A DNA stretch of 64,000 nucleotides from Saccharothrix sp. (GTDB lineage Bacteria > Actinomycetota > Actinomycetes > Mycobacteriales > Pseudonocardiaceae), in contig NZ_JAPSLK010000025.1 in assembly GCF_031180885.1 (NCBI RefSeq), positions 1-64,000 on the forward strand. Direction: 5' to 3'. The translations under genes and the position numbers were made by a program. The notes below the pieces were generated by a model. That model was not told the origin of the DNA. It saw only the letters and a program-made list of their open reading frames with translations, and ran no database searches. Positions 29,772-45,429 of the stretch are shown here, one piece after another. Each line of letters starts with the position of its first letter. The stretch's first letter is position 1.

Positions 29772-30296
29772 GTGACCACCCCTCCTCCCCGCGAGGTCGC
29801 GTCGGTAGGTCGAGACTCATCCGACGACGATCACGCTTTTCGATCCGCGGCGGATCAGGCTCGAACTGCCGACCCCCGGGCGACCTCGCCGCGCGAGCGG
29901 GGCGAGCGCAATTGGACACCGGTGGCGATCGGCGCTGTGTGCTTGCTCTCGCTGGTGGTGTGCTGCGGGCTCGCGTACTGGCAGTGGGAGCGGTTCTCGC
30001 AGGCCGGTGGGACGTTCCAGAACCTCGGCTACGTCTTCCAGTGGCCCCTGTTCGGCCTGTTCCCGGCCTTCATGGTGTGGCGGATGCGCAAGCTCGCCGC
30101 CCAGCGCAGGGCCGAGGACGCCGCCGCTGTGGGCGCCGACACGTCCACGCAGGTGGTCGGGGAGCCGGTGCCGGCCGCTCAGGAGCCGGTCGTTACCGTG
30201 GAGCCCGTCAGGACACCCGCGCACGACGACGAGGACGACGAGCTGGCGGCCTACAACCGCTACCTCCGCGAACTCCACGCGCGGGACCAGCGGTGA
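29772..30296 (+). CDS. Two-pass membrane protein carrying an in-frame palindromic insert
   Basis: 174 residues from GTG 29772. Residues 7-41 (REVASVGR..DHAFRS..RATSP) are encoded by a palindromic repeat also found in the metallophosphoesterase at 39422-40741. After it come two membrane segments, about 48-69 (TPVAIGAVCLLSLVVCCGLAYW) and 84-102 (YVFQWPLFGLFPAFMVWRM), and a charged, acidic C-terminal tail. Function unknown. It is followed closely by a DUF3817 gene on the same strand. Confidence 0.75.
   Translation: MTTPPPREVASVGRDSSDDDHAFRSAADQARTADPRATSPRERGERNWTPVAIGAVCLLSLVVCCGLAYWQWERFSQAGGTFQNLGYVFQWPLFGLFPAFMVWRMRKLAAQRRAEDAAAVGADTSTQVVGEPVPAAQEPVVTVEPVRTPAHDDEDDELAAYNRYLRELHARDQR
29790..29892 (+). 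repeat. In-frame palindromic repeat, copy A
   Basis: The outer arms are GCGAGGTCGC (29791-29800) and GCGACCTCGC near 29880-29889. The inner imperfect arms flank a core GATCACGCTTTTCGATC (29829-29845). The element is read through in frame by the gene starting at 29772. Copy B is at 40293-40393 on the other strand. Confidence 0.8.
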
Positions 30297-30686: not shown

Positions 30687-30718
30687 TGGCGGTACCAACT
30701 GAACACGGCCGTCGATGT

Positions 30719-30915
30719 CGCGCGGGAGAGTCCCCACGCACCACGGGGCGCCGAAGGAGCAACTCCTCCCCGGAATCTCTCAGGCACCGTCACCGCGCAG
30801 ACGAAGGCAACTCTGGAAAGCAGGCGCCCGGCGCCTCGCCCACGGTGCAAGCCGCCCTCGCCGACGTGCGGGGTCGCGGTGAAGCTCTCAGGCTCATGAC
30901 AGAGGGGGAGGCTCA
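30719..30915 (+). ncRNA. Tandem glycine riboswitch
   Basis: The leader carries the glycine-aptamer signature. Aptamer 1 has CGGGAGAGTCC, CGCCGAAGGAGCAA, AATCTCTCAGGCA, then CAGACGAAGGCAACTCTGG. Aptamer 2 follows with ACGGTGCAAGCCGCC, GGTGAAGCTCTCAGG and a closing GACAGAGGGGGAGG. It precedes gcvT by about 100 bases, the usual position in actinobacteria. Glycine binding is expected to turn on the glycine-cleavage and serine genes. Confidence 0.93.
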
Positions 30916-31014
30916 CTCGGACGAGGAGTCTCGATGGACCGTGTCATCCTTCGTAGCGGCAGGCCGACCCACCCGGTCGGCGACGCTGCCGTGCCCGCCT
31001 TCAGGGAGGACCCC

Positions 31015-32115
31015 GTGGAAACCCGCCGGACGCCGCTGCACGCCGAGCACGAGGCGCTGGGCGCCCAGTTCACCGACTTCGCGGGCTGGCGGATGCCGCT
31101 GCGCTACGACAGCGAGCTGGCCGAGCACCACGCCGTGCGCACGTCGGCGGGCCTGTTCGACCTGACCCACATGGGTGAGATCGTGTTGACCGGCCCGCAG
31201 GCCGGCGCCGCGCTCGACCACGCCCTGGTCGGCCACGCGTCCGCGATCGGCGTCGGCCGCGCCCGCTACACCATGATCTGCCAGGCCGACGGCGGCGTGA
31301 TCGATGACCTGATCGTGTACCGCACCGGTGACCAGGAGTACCTGGTCGTCGCCAACGCCTCCAACGCGGCCGTCGTCTTCGACGCCCTGAAGGAGCGCGC
31401 CGAGGGCTTCGACACCACCGTCGAGGACAAGTCCACCGACTACGCGTTGCTGGCCGTGCAGGGCCCCAAGGCGGTCGCCATCCTGGAGGGCCTGACCGAG
31501 ACGGACCTGTCGAAGGTCAAGTACTACGCCTCCTACCCGACCGAGGTGGCCGGCAAGCCCGCGCTGCTGGCCCGCACCGGCTACACCGGCGAGGACGGCT
31601 TCGAGCTGTTCCTGGCCCCGGCCGACGCCCCGCACGTGTGGCAGGCGCTCCTCGAAGCGGGCAAGCCGCACGACCTCAAGCCGGCCGGCCTGGGCTGCCG
31701 CGACACCCTGCGCCTGGAGGCCGGGATGCCGCTGTACGGCAACGAGCTGAGCACCTCCCGCACGCCCTACCACGCCAACCTGGGCCGCGTGGTGAAGCTG
31801 GACAAGCCGGGCGACTTCGTCGGCCGCGAGCCGCTGGCCAAGGTGGCCGAGGCGGGCGTCGAGGCCAAGCTGGTCGGGCTGAAGACCGAGTCCCGCCGCG
31901 CGCCGCGCCACGGGTACGCCGTGCTGGACGTCGACGGCACGGCCATCGGCGAGGTCACCAGCGGCGCGCTGTCGCCGACGCTGGGGTACTCGGTGGCGAT
32001 GGCGTACGTGCCGCCCGCGCACGCCGAGCCCGGCACCAAGCTGTCCGTCGACGTCCGGGGCCGGCAGGAGCCCGTGGAGGTCGTCGCCCTGCCGTTCTAC
32101 AAGCGCAACTCGTAG
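31015..32115 (+). CDS. gcvT: Aminomethyltransferase (glycine cleavage T protein)
   Basis: 366 residues from GTG 31015 after GGGAGGA (an in-frame ATG at 30934 is a less likely start). The T protein transfers the methylene group from the aminomethyl-lipoyl H protein to tetrahydrofolate. The family patterns are present: [35 protein letters not shown] and [13 protein letters not shown], with [19 protein letters not shown]. It is expressed with glyA 13 bases downstream under the glycine riboswitch; gcvP and gcvH are not in the window. Confidence 0.96.
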
Positions 32116-32128
32116 GGAGAGGTCCCAC

Positions 32129-33394
32129 ATGTCCGAGCACTTCAACACCTCCCTCGCGGAGTTCGACCCCGAGGTCGCCGACGCGGTCGCGGCCGAGCTG
32201 CGCCGGCAGCAGGGCACGCTGGAGATGATCGCGTCGGAGAACTTCACGCCGGTGTCGGTGCTCCAGGCGCAGGGCTCGGTGCTGACCAACAAGTACGCCG
32301 AGGGCTACCCGGGCCGCCGCTACTACGGCGGGTGCGAGAACGTCGACGTCATCGAGCGGCTGGCCATCGCGCGGGTCAAGGAGCTGTTCGGCGCGGGCTA
32401 CGCCAACGTGCAGCCGCACTCGGGCGCGCAGGCCAACGCGTGCGCCATGTTCGCCCTGCTCCAGCCCGGTGACACCATCCTGGGCCTGGACCTGGCGCAC
32501 GGCGGCCACCTGACCCACGGCATGCGGATCAACTTCTCCGGCAAGCTCTACAACGTCGTGCCCTACCACGTGTCCGATGTGGACGGGCGGGTGGACATGG
32601 CCGAGGTCGAGGCGCTGGCGCAGGAGCACCGGCCGAAGCTGATCGTGGCGGGCTGGTCGGCCTACCCGCGGCAGCTGGACTTCGCGGAGTTCCGCCGGAT
32701 CGCCGACTCGGTGGGCGCGTACCTGCTGGTGGACATGGCCCACTTCGCCGGTCTGGTGGCGGCGGGCCTGCACCCGAGCCCGGTGCCGCACGCCCACGTC
32801 GTCACGACGACGACGCACAAGACCCTCGGCGGCCCGCGCGGCGGCGTGATCCTGACCAACGAGGCGGACCTCGCCAAGAAGATCAACTCGGCGGTGTTCC
32901 CCGGCCAGCAGGGCGGTCCGCTGGAGCACGTGATCGCGGGCAAGGCGGTGGCGTTCAAGCACGCCGCGTCCCCGGAGTTCGCCGACCGCCAGCGCCGCAC
33001 GGTCGAGGGCGCGAAGATCCTCGCCGACCGGCTGTCCCAGCCCGACGCGGCGGCCGCCGGCGTGAAGGTGCTGACCGGCGGCACGGACGTGCACCTGGTG
33101 CTGGTCGACCTGGTGAACTCGGAGCTGGACGGCAAGCAGGCCGAGGACCGGCTGCACGAGGTGGGCATCACGGTCAACCGCAACGCCGTCCCGAACGACC
33201 CGCGCCCGCCGATGGTCACCTCGGGCCTGCGCATCGGCACCCCGGCGTTGGCCACGCGCGGCTTCGGCGCGGCGGACTTCGCGGAGGTCGCCGACATCAT
33301 CGCGACCGCTTTGCAGCCTTCCGCCGATCTCGCTGAGCTGCGTTCGCGGGTCGAGGTGCTGGCCGCGAAGCACCCGCTCTACCCCAACCTGTAA
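32129..33394 (+). CDS. glyA: Serine hydroxymethyltransferase
   Basis: 421 residues, PLP enzyme that interconverts serine and glycine with tetrahydrofolate. Patterns: [38 protein letters not shown], the PLP-Lys motif [16 protein letters not shown] near 222-237, and the C-terminal [14 protein letters not shown]. It forms an operon with gcvT, joining glycine cleavage to serine synthesis and one-carbon supply. Confidence 0.97.
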
Positions 33395-33409
33395 GGGTGC
33401 GACCTCGCC

Positions 33410-33483
33410 GACCCGCCGGAGGCGGGTCAATTCAACACAGCGCATGACATGACCCCCGGCCCAACCCCAGGCCGGGGGTCATG
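33410..33483. terminator. Two hairpins between glyA and the convergent lipoprotein gene
   Basis: First: GACCCGCC-GGA-GGCGGGTC (33410-33428), followed by AATTC. Second: ACATGACCCCCGGCC (33446-33460) pairing with its complement at 33469-33483 across an 8-base loop. Both are perfect. The sequence around the first (GCGACCTCGCC, CAATTCAAC) resembles the tail of the in-frame palindromic repeat. Confidence 0.8.
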
Positions 33484-39421: not shown

Positions 39422-40741
39422 CTATCGGGACGCGAAGTTGTGATGCAGCTCCACCAACGAGATGTCGGGCGGGGCGCCCACGCGGACCGGCGGACCCCAG
39501 AAACCGGCCCCGTTGGTGGTGTAGACCTGCACCCCGTCCACCACCTCCAGGCCACTGCGGACGGGCTGCTGGAGGCCCACCGCGAGGTGGAACGGGAACA
39601 TCTGCCCGCCGTGCGTGTGGCCGGACAGCTGGAGGTCCACGCCGTGCTTGGCGGCCTCGTGCGCCTGCACCGGCTGGTGCGCCAGCAGCACGACGGGACT
39701 GGCCGGGTCGCGGCCGTCCAGCGCCCGGGCGAAGTCCGGACCGTCCTGGAAGTTCGTGCCCGTCACGTCGTTCACACCGGCCAGTTCGAACGAGGCGCCC
39801 GCCCGTTCGATCCGCACCCGCTCGTTGCGCAGCGGGTGGACGCCCAACCGGTCGAGTTCGGCCAGCCAGGGCTCGAAGCCCGAGTAGTACTCGTGGTTGC
39901 CGGTGACGAAGTAGGTGCCGTGCGTGCTCACCAGGTCGCGCAGCGGCGCCGCCGCCTCGCCGAGCTGCTCGACCGTGCCGTCCACGAGGTCGCCGACGAC
40001 GGCCACCAGGTCCGGCTGCAGCTCGTTGATCATCCGCACGATCCGCTCGGTGTGCGCGCGGCCGAGCAGCGGGCCGAGGTGGATGTCGCTGACGACGGCG
40101 ATGCGGTATCCCGCAAGCCTCCGGTCCAACTTCGTCAGGTTCACCGGGACCGTCTTGATACGCGGCGCACTCAACGCCTCCGTCGCCCCGTACCCGACGA
40201 TGCCGGCCGTCGCCACCCCACCCGCAACAGCCAGTGAACGTGCGATGAACAGCCTGCGACCTGCGTTGAATTGCCGCTCCTCCGTCGCGGCGGGCGAGGT
40301 CGCCCGAAAGTCGGCACGTCGGGCCTCGTCTTCCGACGATCGAAAAGCGTGATCGCCGGAAGACGAGGCCCGACCCACCGACGCGACCTCGCGGATGGGC
40401 ACCTTCCGGCGGGTGGTCCGGTTGAGCGCCAGTCGCGGGATTTCCAGGACGCCGAACACCACGGCCAGGTAGAACACGCAGGCCAGCCAGATGTACCCCG
40501 GCCACGACAGCACCGGCGTCTCGACCAGCAGCCCGGCGATCATGAGGGCGAACAGCCCGACGACCGCCGCGGTGCCGATCCGCCGGGCCCGGCCGGGGGC
40601 GGTCGTGTTCCGCACGGCCCGCCGCCACACGTAGTAGTGCGCGGACCCCATCACGACCGTGAACAGCAACAAGAACAACAACGCCCGGCCTCCCAGAGTC
40701 TCTGGCAACCAGTCTCCACGAAACTCGTGAACGGGATGCAA
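39422..40741 (-). CDS. Membrane metallophosphoesterase with in-frame palindromic insert
   Basis: 439 residues in the longest form (TTG 40741; start uncertain). Membrane helices at about 17-38, 57-75 and 80-100 are followed by a cytoplasmic stretch that contains the palindromic repeat product (REVASVGR..DHAFRS..RATSP). A further hydrophobic segment (SLAVAGGVATAGIVGYGAT) follows, then a calcineurin-like domain: VVSDIHLG, VVGDLVDG, TGNHEYY, LLAHQP and SGHTHGGQ. All metal ligands are present. The catalytic domain after a last membrane segment fits the YkuE/YaeI-like group. The natural substrate is unknown. Confidence 0.92.
   Translation of the reverse strand: MHPVHEFRGDWLPETLGGRALLFLLLFTVVMGSAHYYVWRRAVRNTTAPGRARRIGTAAVVGLFALMIAGLLVETPVLSWPGYIWLACVFYLAVVFGVLEIPRLALNRTTRRKVPIREVASVGRASSSGDHAFRSSEDEARRADFRATSPAATEERQFNAGRRLFIARSLAVAGGVATAGIVGYGATEALSAPRIKTVPVNLTKLDRRLAGYRIAVVSDIHLGPLLGRAHTERIVRMINELQPDLVAVVGDLVDGTVEQLGEAAAPLRDLVSTHGTYFVTGNHEYYSGFEPWLAELDRLGVHPLRNERVRIERAGASFELAGVNDVTGTNFQDGPDFARALDGRDPASPVVLLAHQPVQAHEAAKHGVDLQLSGHTHGGQMFPFHLAVGLQQPVRSGLEVVDGVQVYTTNGAGFWGPPVRVGAPPDISLVELHHNFASR
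40293..40393 (-). repeat. In-frame palindromic repeat, copy B
   Basis: On the coding (minus) strand: outer GCGAGGTCGCG, inner stem GTCGGGCCTCGTCTTCCG pairing perfectly with its complement, core GATCACGCTTTTCGATC (40338-40354), outer GCGACCTCGCC. The gene reads straight through it. Copy A is at 29790-29892. Confidence 0.85.
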
Positions 40742-45355: not shown

Positions 45356-45429
45356 GCCCCCGTAGCCCAATCGGCAGAGGCAGCGGACTCAAAATCCGTC
45401 CAGTGTGCGTTCGAGTCGCACCGGGGGCA
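45356..45429 (+). tRNA. tRNA-Leu (anticodon CAA), short variable loop
   Basis: A 74-base cloverleaf: acceptor GCCCCCG/CGGGGGC, anticodon stem GCGGA/TCCGT (G-U at one end) with loop CTCAAAA (anticodon CAA at 45390-45392), and T arm GTGCG TTCGAGT CGCAC. The discriminator is A73. CCA is not encoded. The variable loop is only 5 bases, whereas bacterial leucine tRNAs usually have a long variable arm. Confidence 0.88.

Follow-up and report, generated by a model that had tools for sequence, protein, structure and literature searches.

A mobile family of structured repeats of about 131 nucleotides in the genome of a Saccharothrix species

Background

The movement of small palindromic repeats is best understood where a RAYT enzyme is present, the enzyme being described as binding and cutting the single-stranded form of the REP sequence (PMC3733652). 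The REP units themselves are given as 20-40 bp in length; they bear a tag of four nucleotides and go with a Y1 enzyme. A second group, ERIC and the repeats RU-1, RU-2 and RU-3, consists of enterobacterial intergenic repeats of 103-168 bp, for which in-frame fusions are reported and for which the account consulted gives the mechanism of transfer as not known (PMC2759123). The Rickettsia palindromic elements (RPE) are described as palindromic repeats of 100-150 bp, some of which lie within genes and leave the frame unbroken (PMC3767692), and a CGTC end tag is stated elsewhere (PMC3733652).

We report an interspersed, non-autonomous, mobile family of about 131 nt in the genome of a Saccharothrix species, a soil actinomycete, starting from two copies in a stretch of 64,000 nucleotides that is referred to throughout as the window. 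Among the titles and abstract openings of the best-matching open-access papers, none describes such an element for Saccharothrix, other Pseudonocardiaceae or Nocardia.

Three further classes of sequence enter the comparison. MITEs are short, non-autonomous and present in high copy number, with terminal inverted repeats and a target duplication. SINE-like retroelements are eukaryotic and consist of a short structured unit, whose truncated copies keep the 3' end. Integron attC sites carry GTTRRRY and RYYYAAC boxes at their two ends.

The Saccharothrix element shares with RPE a length of 100-150 bp, the palindromic form and the presence of some copies in genes without a break of frame. It differs in lying mostly outside genes, in adding a second hairpin and a tail, in being actinobacterial and in occupying sites that differ between species; furthermore, the listed copies end in GCGAGG-like and ACAG-like sequence, with neither a CGTC nor a GTAG tag at the hairpin foot. 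With ERIC and the RU repeats it has in common the size class, the intergenic position and the in-frame fusions but, in a comparison made by description, it is distinguished by a family resemblance across genera that is one of shape and not of sequence. The copies are extragenic palindromes, as are REP sequences, though the unit is about 131 bp long, has no tag and occurs in a genus in which 20 of 25 genomes hold no Y1 enzyme. Like MITEs, the element is short, non-autonomous and of high copy number; like SINEs, it is short and structured and its truncated copies retain the 3' end, but many of its carriers hold no RVT_1 and the loop inversions described below are not accounted for by such a model. 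An attC site was considered and rejected, since the common tail has a RYYYAAC-like stretch for which the 5' end offers no partner.

The family combines rigidity of shape with numerous insertions for which an empty site is available for comparison, and with tails that partly record the target; with compensatory change at single loci too, the question of how such a repeat moves becomes testable. The repeat also adds about 43 residues to proteins and makes a natural fusion frame of a molybdopterin oxidoreductase and an AMP-binding enzyme.

Results and discussion

The repeat unit and its copies

A search of the genome with the 17-bp core, as the original prediction had proposed, found it at 53 places with two mismatches or fewer, 12 of them exact, against none for a reversed-pattern control. 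Within the window the exact core lies at 29829-29845 on the plus strand and at 40338-40354 on the minus strand, and two matches were reached in none of 100 shuffles of the window with up to three mismatches allowed. Aligning the 53 core places revealed a repeat unit of about 131 bp, which starts with GCGAGG, continues through a long hairpin with a 10-bp closing stem and then a second hairpin, and finishes in a tail like CAATCCAACACAG. The long hairpin has a bulge on its 3' side only, a long variable stem and the core as its loop, and the aligned copies hold no gene of the element's own. Forty-five of the places make up alignment A1, the remaining eight having been left out as truncated, tandem or loop-inverted, and the covariance model built from it, R1, gave 90 matches at an E-value of 1e-12 or better in the loci fetched from the same genome. 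Removal of one double call leaves 89 distinct places, with one locus (L194) cut by a contig end; this number is a lower bound (150 candidates had been scored). A full-looking relative upstream of position 2002 in L271 has a different loop (GGCCGCGCCTTTGGCC) and was detected only via its tail, so that further subfamilies exist in the Saccharothrix genome.

Both window sites are thus genuine members of the family, each being one of the 89 places. Copy A (131 bp; 29791-29921, plus strand) is supported by R1 at 109.8 bits, by the alignment and by its fold. Its long hairpin, at 29791-29888, comprises the 10-bp basal stem, a 6-nt bulge on the 3' side only, the variable stem and the loop with the core GATCACGCTTTTCGATC (29829-29845); next comes the second hairpin at 29890-29909, whose pairing in copy A is poor, and the 3' tail AATTGGACACCG occupies 29910-29921. 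Copy B (132 bp; 40261-40392, minus strand), supported by R1 at 135.8 bits and by its fold, has its loop core at 40338-40354 and its tail AATTCAACGCAG at 40261-40272. The extent of about 100 bp originally proposed for the palindromes covers only the first hairpin; the element runs on through the second hairpin and the tail, ending at 29921 in copy A and, for the minus-strand copy B, at 40261. A third, partial copy had been missed: at 33399-33440 on the plus strand, beginning 4 nt past the point where the gene at 32129-33394 ends in its stop codon, lie the 3' arm of the basal stem (GCGACCTCGC), the second hairpin and the tail AATTCAACACAG.

Host genes, reading frames and position

Copy A lies in the gene of a small membrane protein without a Pfam match (29772-30296, plus strand), where it codes for residues about 7-50 if translation starts at the GTG at 29772, a start that is kept in aligned relatives. 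At the 24 orthologous loci R1 gives no match below E 0.15 and, among the 14 that were aligned as DNA, 13 are without a long insert at this place and one (G015) has a long stretch of another sequence. Copy B sits in the gene of a calcineurin-like phosphoesterase with an N-terminal membrane part (39422-40741, minus strand), in a linker that is longer in some of the 24 orthologues than in others; none of the 24 aligned relatives has the peptide, and R1 has no match at the gene in the 24 relative loci. Site occupancy is thus 0 of 24 loci for each window gene, and the segment, which had been taken for an inserted repeat and not for a conserved domain of the two proteins, is confirmed as such by the absence of the peptide from the orthologues. 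In the stretch of G016, the nearest relative, that matches the window, a weak R1 match of 27.2 bits (L198:16752-16863) was noted away from the phosphoesterase gene.

Elsewhere in the genome, on contig C48, a single open frame of 1319 amino acids (L012:906-4862) runs through an element, so that a molybdopterin oxidoreductase and an AMP-binding enzyme become continuous. These partners are two genes in all nine relatives examined at the DNA level (nine of the 13 loci fetched), G016 included, where the first gene has its own stop and the second its own start, preceded by a ribosome-binding stretch. Inside a gene, an insertion adds about 43 amino acids.

Called genes contain four of the 89 copies (L012, L015, L044 and window copy B) and 85 are not so contained, although six of these "outside" copies (L024, L034, L043, L048, L164:3536 and L188) overlap one called gene by at least 44 nt. 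The gene caller, which was home-made and based on codon usage, chose the GTG at 29922 and so placed copy A just upstream of its gene; we count this copy as coding because a GTG corresponding to that at 29772 is conserved in the aligned relatives, which brings the number of copies outside genes to 84 of 89. Four copies are read in the sense direction inside genes, namely copy A, copy B, one in a DUF58 protein and the one joining two genes in L012, and all four keep the same core frame, DHAFRS, a point on which the original prediction had invited a check. The copy in L044 lies at the end of a gene and is read in antisense. Over 87 copies, 3.92 of the 6 frames are open, slightly fewer than the 4.42 of a composition model; as open frames do not exceed what composition would give, coding seems to be a side effect, and the view of the repeat as an element of genes is not upheld. 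Nor do we take as evidence for genes the large open frames around copies in other genomes, one of which, of 2653 amino acids (G005, C56), lies between two divergent called genes.

Copies often abut stop codons. Fifteen of 51 copies start 0-4 nt after a stop codon (15 of the 49 usable, against 8.2 expected from uniform placing), and in 17 of 31 cases an oppositely oriented gene ends within the final 14 nt of the element. Relative to both flanking genes the orientation is the same in 34 copies and opposite in 14 (p 0.0055), and 18 of the 83 copies with genes on both sides sit between divergent genes.

Empty sites and insertion junctions

Mobility was examined by searching the joined flanks of 30 copies in G016, which is 90.2% identical over one region. 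For 22 of the 30 queries one match runs through the joint, and for a 23rd (L017) it runs 57 nt past the joint. The L175 site holds a remnant made up of the second hairpin and tail, leaving 21 of 30 sites without the element; R1, run on 21 of the 22 through-joint sites (all except that of L038), finds no element at any of them, the L203 match being about 250 nt away. At the L038 site the flank match spans 213 bases for 244 of the query, which is too short for the element, and three copies without a through match (L179, L041:1764 and L173) are also present in G016. Comparison of a second set with G001, G003, G005 and G007 added more empty sites, together with some sites that hold remnants, and the clean cases are L192 and, against two genomes, L304. 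The element moves: the nearest relative is without it at most of the sites tested. At the site of L022:4342, which is among the tail pairs used below, G016 (L222) carries a small hairpin whose C-rich stem stands on the same foot, GCGAGGCCG...CGGCCTCG; this hairpin may be a remnant.

Inspection by eye of the 89 junctions and of the empty-site pairs gave no consistent target-site duplication, and the copies carry no terminal inverted repeats, the 5' end being GCGAGG and the 3' end ACACAG; a MITE with inverted ends was rejected on these two grounds. In a lone copy (L038:2954-3084) we noticed that a direct repeat of 10 bp (TTGACCGGTC) clearly flanks the element; the site is self-complementary.

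The junctions do bear a relation to the tail. At L304 the empty site reads CCACA-ACCGGAAATTG-TCGG in one relative, with one base different in the tail part in the second, and thus already contains the last 7-9 nt of the tail. For 28 pairs of a tail and its own empty site (five more were dropped, the flank match beginning too far in, and two of those used, L042 and L032, rest on the downstream flank alone), the last 8 nt are identical at 120 of 224 positions, where permutation gives a mean of 78.0 and a maximum of 102 in 5000; removal of four less certain pairs leaves 104 of 192 against 65.6. The match reaches at least six of the last eight bases in 8 of the 28 pairs and falls below six in 20, so the tail-target signal rests on a minority of sites. 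The empty site ends in G in 22 of 28 pairs. Upstream, no sharp 5' leader was found in 88 copies; within 22 nt, CCACC occurs in 17 of them against a mean of 5.8 farther out, and TGACC in 11 against 2.6.

Partial copies that retain the 3' end exist. One insertion is shared by G024, in which it is complete, and G007, in which most of the long stem has been lost, and some partial copies are surely deletions. We also observed, at L166, L183 and L023, short tandem arrays in head-to-tail order, built either from the tail or from the second hairpin together with the tail, in which the truncated units start directly after CACAG.

Folding and compensatory change

Copy B folds with an energy of -94.9 kcal/mol (z -9.60), which none of 200 shuffles equalled; the fold of copy A, at -64.9 kcal/mol (z -2.61, with two of 200 shuffles as good), is weaker because its stem has several mismatches. 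Across 90 aligned rows both sides change in 31 of 41 pairs, and 97.5% of pair cells show standard pairing against 87.7% when shuffled and 28-44% when slid, values that come from an alignment fitted to R1 and leaning towards the model. The expectation, drawn originally from the two window copies, that pairing is kept while the stem bases differ thus holds for the family. By folding, 74 of the 89 copies have a bulge of 5-7 nt on the 3' side only, after 8-11 bp.

Change of the same kind is seen within single loci. Three orthologous pairs gave nine compensated double changes, two one-sided changes and four broken pairs, with 13 more gapped and not comparable. The copy shared as L179 and L221, whose flanks are identical at 293 of 300 positions on the 5' side and 259 of 300 on the 3' side, has dense compensated change across the inner stem. 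The stems stay paired by compensatory change, both between copies and at one locus in two species.

The two strands of the element are not equivalent. Wobble pairs are biased towards G.U, with 188 cells against 31 for A.C among 3616 (67 and 29 once three columns are left out), and of the two strands the element strand gives the more stable fold in 71 of the 89 copies and in 18 of the 24 tested among 32 copies from other genera; the wobble cells and the copies are related by descent, and no probability is therefore attached to the asymmetry. In six of the 89 copies (L014, L022 twice, L037:2922, L182 and L192) the loop is inverted relative to the arms, and these inverted loops derive from more than one loop type.

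Distribution

With R1 at E 0.001, 22 of 25 genomes of the genus match, the three without a match being G004, G011 and G013, and G015, G006 and G001 have at least 35 matches each, in counts that stop at 56 and may include both strands of one place. Three named pattern matches were compared with the model: that in S. algeriensis DSM 44581 reaches 53.9 bits even though the stretch ends within it; that in S. tamanrassetensis has no R1 support at that place, with 29.9 bits nearby; and the third, in a MAG, has no R1 match. Among 397 genomes of the order 17 match, four of them in the same genus; the other 13 are spread over four further genera, of which three fall in the same family and one in a different family. 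The 32 copies extracted from these other genera differ greatly in sequence. The same shape, with the one-sided bulge and second hairpin, is present in 29 of the 31 measured, a figure in which shape is partly selected for by the use of R1 to find the copies, and many of their tails, whose length depends in part on where the model stops, read AATCAAACACAG or near it. Carriage by plasmids or phages was considered and rejected: a blastn search with one copy each against plasmids and phages gave no match, and the single core match on a viral contig holds no element by R1.

Mechanism of movement

The reading that we prefer, and to which we give about an even chance, is of a non-autonomous element copied via a folded single strand and joined at its 3' tail, with RNA more likely than DNA. 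Copying would pass through the folded strand, a transcript more probably than DNA, and would be done by an enzyme acting in trans. The 3' tail would then anneal to the target or be joined there, with a junction base that is most often G, and joining would leave small changes or losses at the target and no duplication. Insertions that leave genes functional would be retained, which would place most copies outside genes, often touching a stop codon; as the GC-rich unit has few stops, some insertions would extend or join reading frames. Our leaning towards an RNA over a DNA intermediate is drawn from the wobble asymmetry and the orientation bias. DNA events act too, as the loop inversion and hairpin loss indicate, and these observations count against the preferred reading: inverted loops are better explained by a DNA event than by copying of RNA, and the partial copies may be deletions of an unstable hairpin.

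The most serious competitor, which we nevertheless think unlikely, is a DNA miniature transposon moved by a DNA transposase, in which compensatory stem changes would arise when one arm of the palindrome serves as the template for correcting its partner, during hairpin repair or through a template switch, and RNA plays no role. Hairpin flipping predicts just such inverted loops, of more than one type, as are found in the six copies; the dense compensated change in the copy shared by L179 and L221, with its near-identical 5' flank, and the partial loss of hairpins also fit. Such a transposon is opposed by ends without inverted repeats and by junctions without consistent duplication, by the excess of G.U over A.C and the strand asymmetry of folding energy, and by a one-sided bulge and second hairpin that are kept across genera.

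Candidate enzymes were sought with profiles. Y1_Tnp is present in five of the 25 genomes of the genus and absent from 20, including the genome under study (G000), G016, G015 and G006. RVT_1 is present in ten, G000 among them, and absent from 15, which include the heavy carriers G015, G006 and G001; a resident RVT_1 reverse transcriptase was accordingly rejected as a general answer. Neither enzyme accounts for the whole family, and this negative result weighs against the preferred reading, as do the 20 of 28 tails that match their empty site at fewer than six bases. A narrower form of copying through RNA would make the family a bacterial SINE-like element, a short structured RNA whose 3' tail pairs with the target, copied by neither a RAYT-type transposase nor an RVT_1 enzyme and keeping its shape, not its sequence, across two actinobacterial families; taken as a whole, we regard this combination as improbable.

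Very improbable is a host structure, a terminator or stabiliser of mRNA ends that has spread through its usefulness. It would suit the 85 copies not contained in a called gene and the excess of 5' ends just after stop codons, but it sits badly with the copies between divergent genes, with a closest relative that does not share the site for most copies tested, and with insertions that extend or join genes. A REP-type element moved by RAYT or by an IS200/IS605 tyrosine transposase can be given hardly any credence: the copies are palindromic, lie for the most part outside genes and have a hairpin close to their 3' end, but Y1_Tnp is missing from most of the genus and neither tag stands at the ends. 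The likeness to the Rickettsia palindromic elements, which had been noted at the outset, amounts to length, palindromic form and four sense-read copies with one core frame, and an element of that type adapted to coding sequence was rejected as hardly tenable, given the different ends and phylum, the location outside genes, the lack of enrichment for open frames and the sites not common to orthologues.

A known RNA family was rejected as well, the element having no Rfam match at gathering score. One copy searched at a relaxed threshold gave eight hits, none at gathering score and with microRNA models among them, since a long hairpin gives such matches. For the whole window, Rfam reports at gathering score only a glycine riboswitch aptamer at 30713-30805 on the plus strand (66.6 bits), upstream of the open frame at 30934-32115, and a tRNA gene at 45356-45429, also on the plus strand (RF00005, 56.7 bits).
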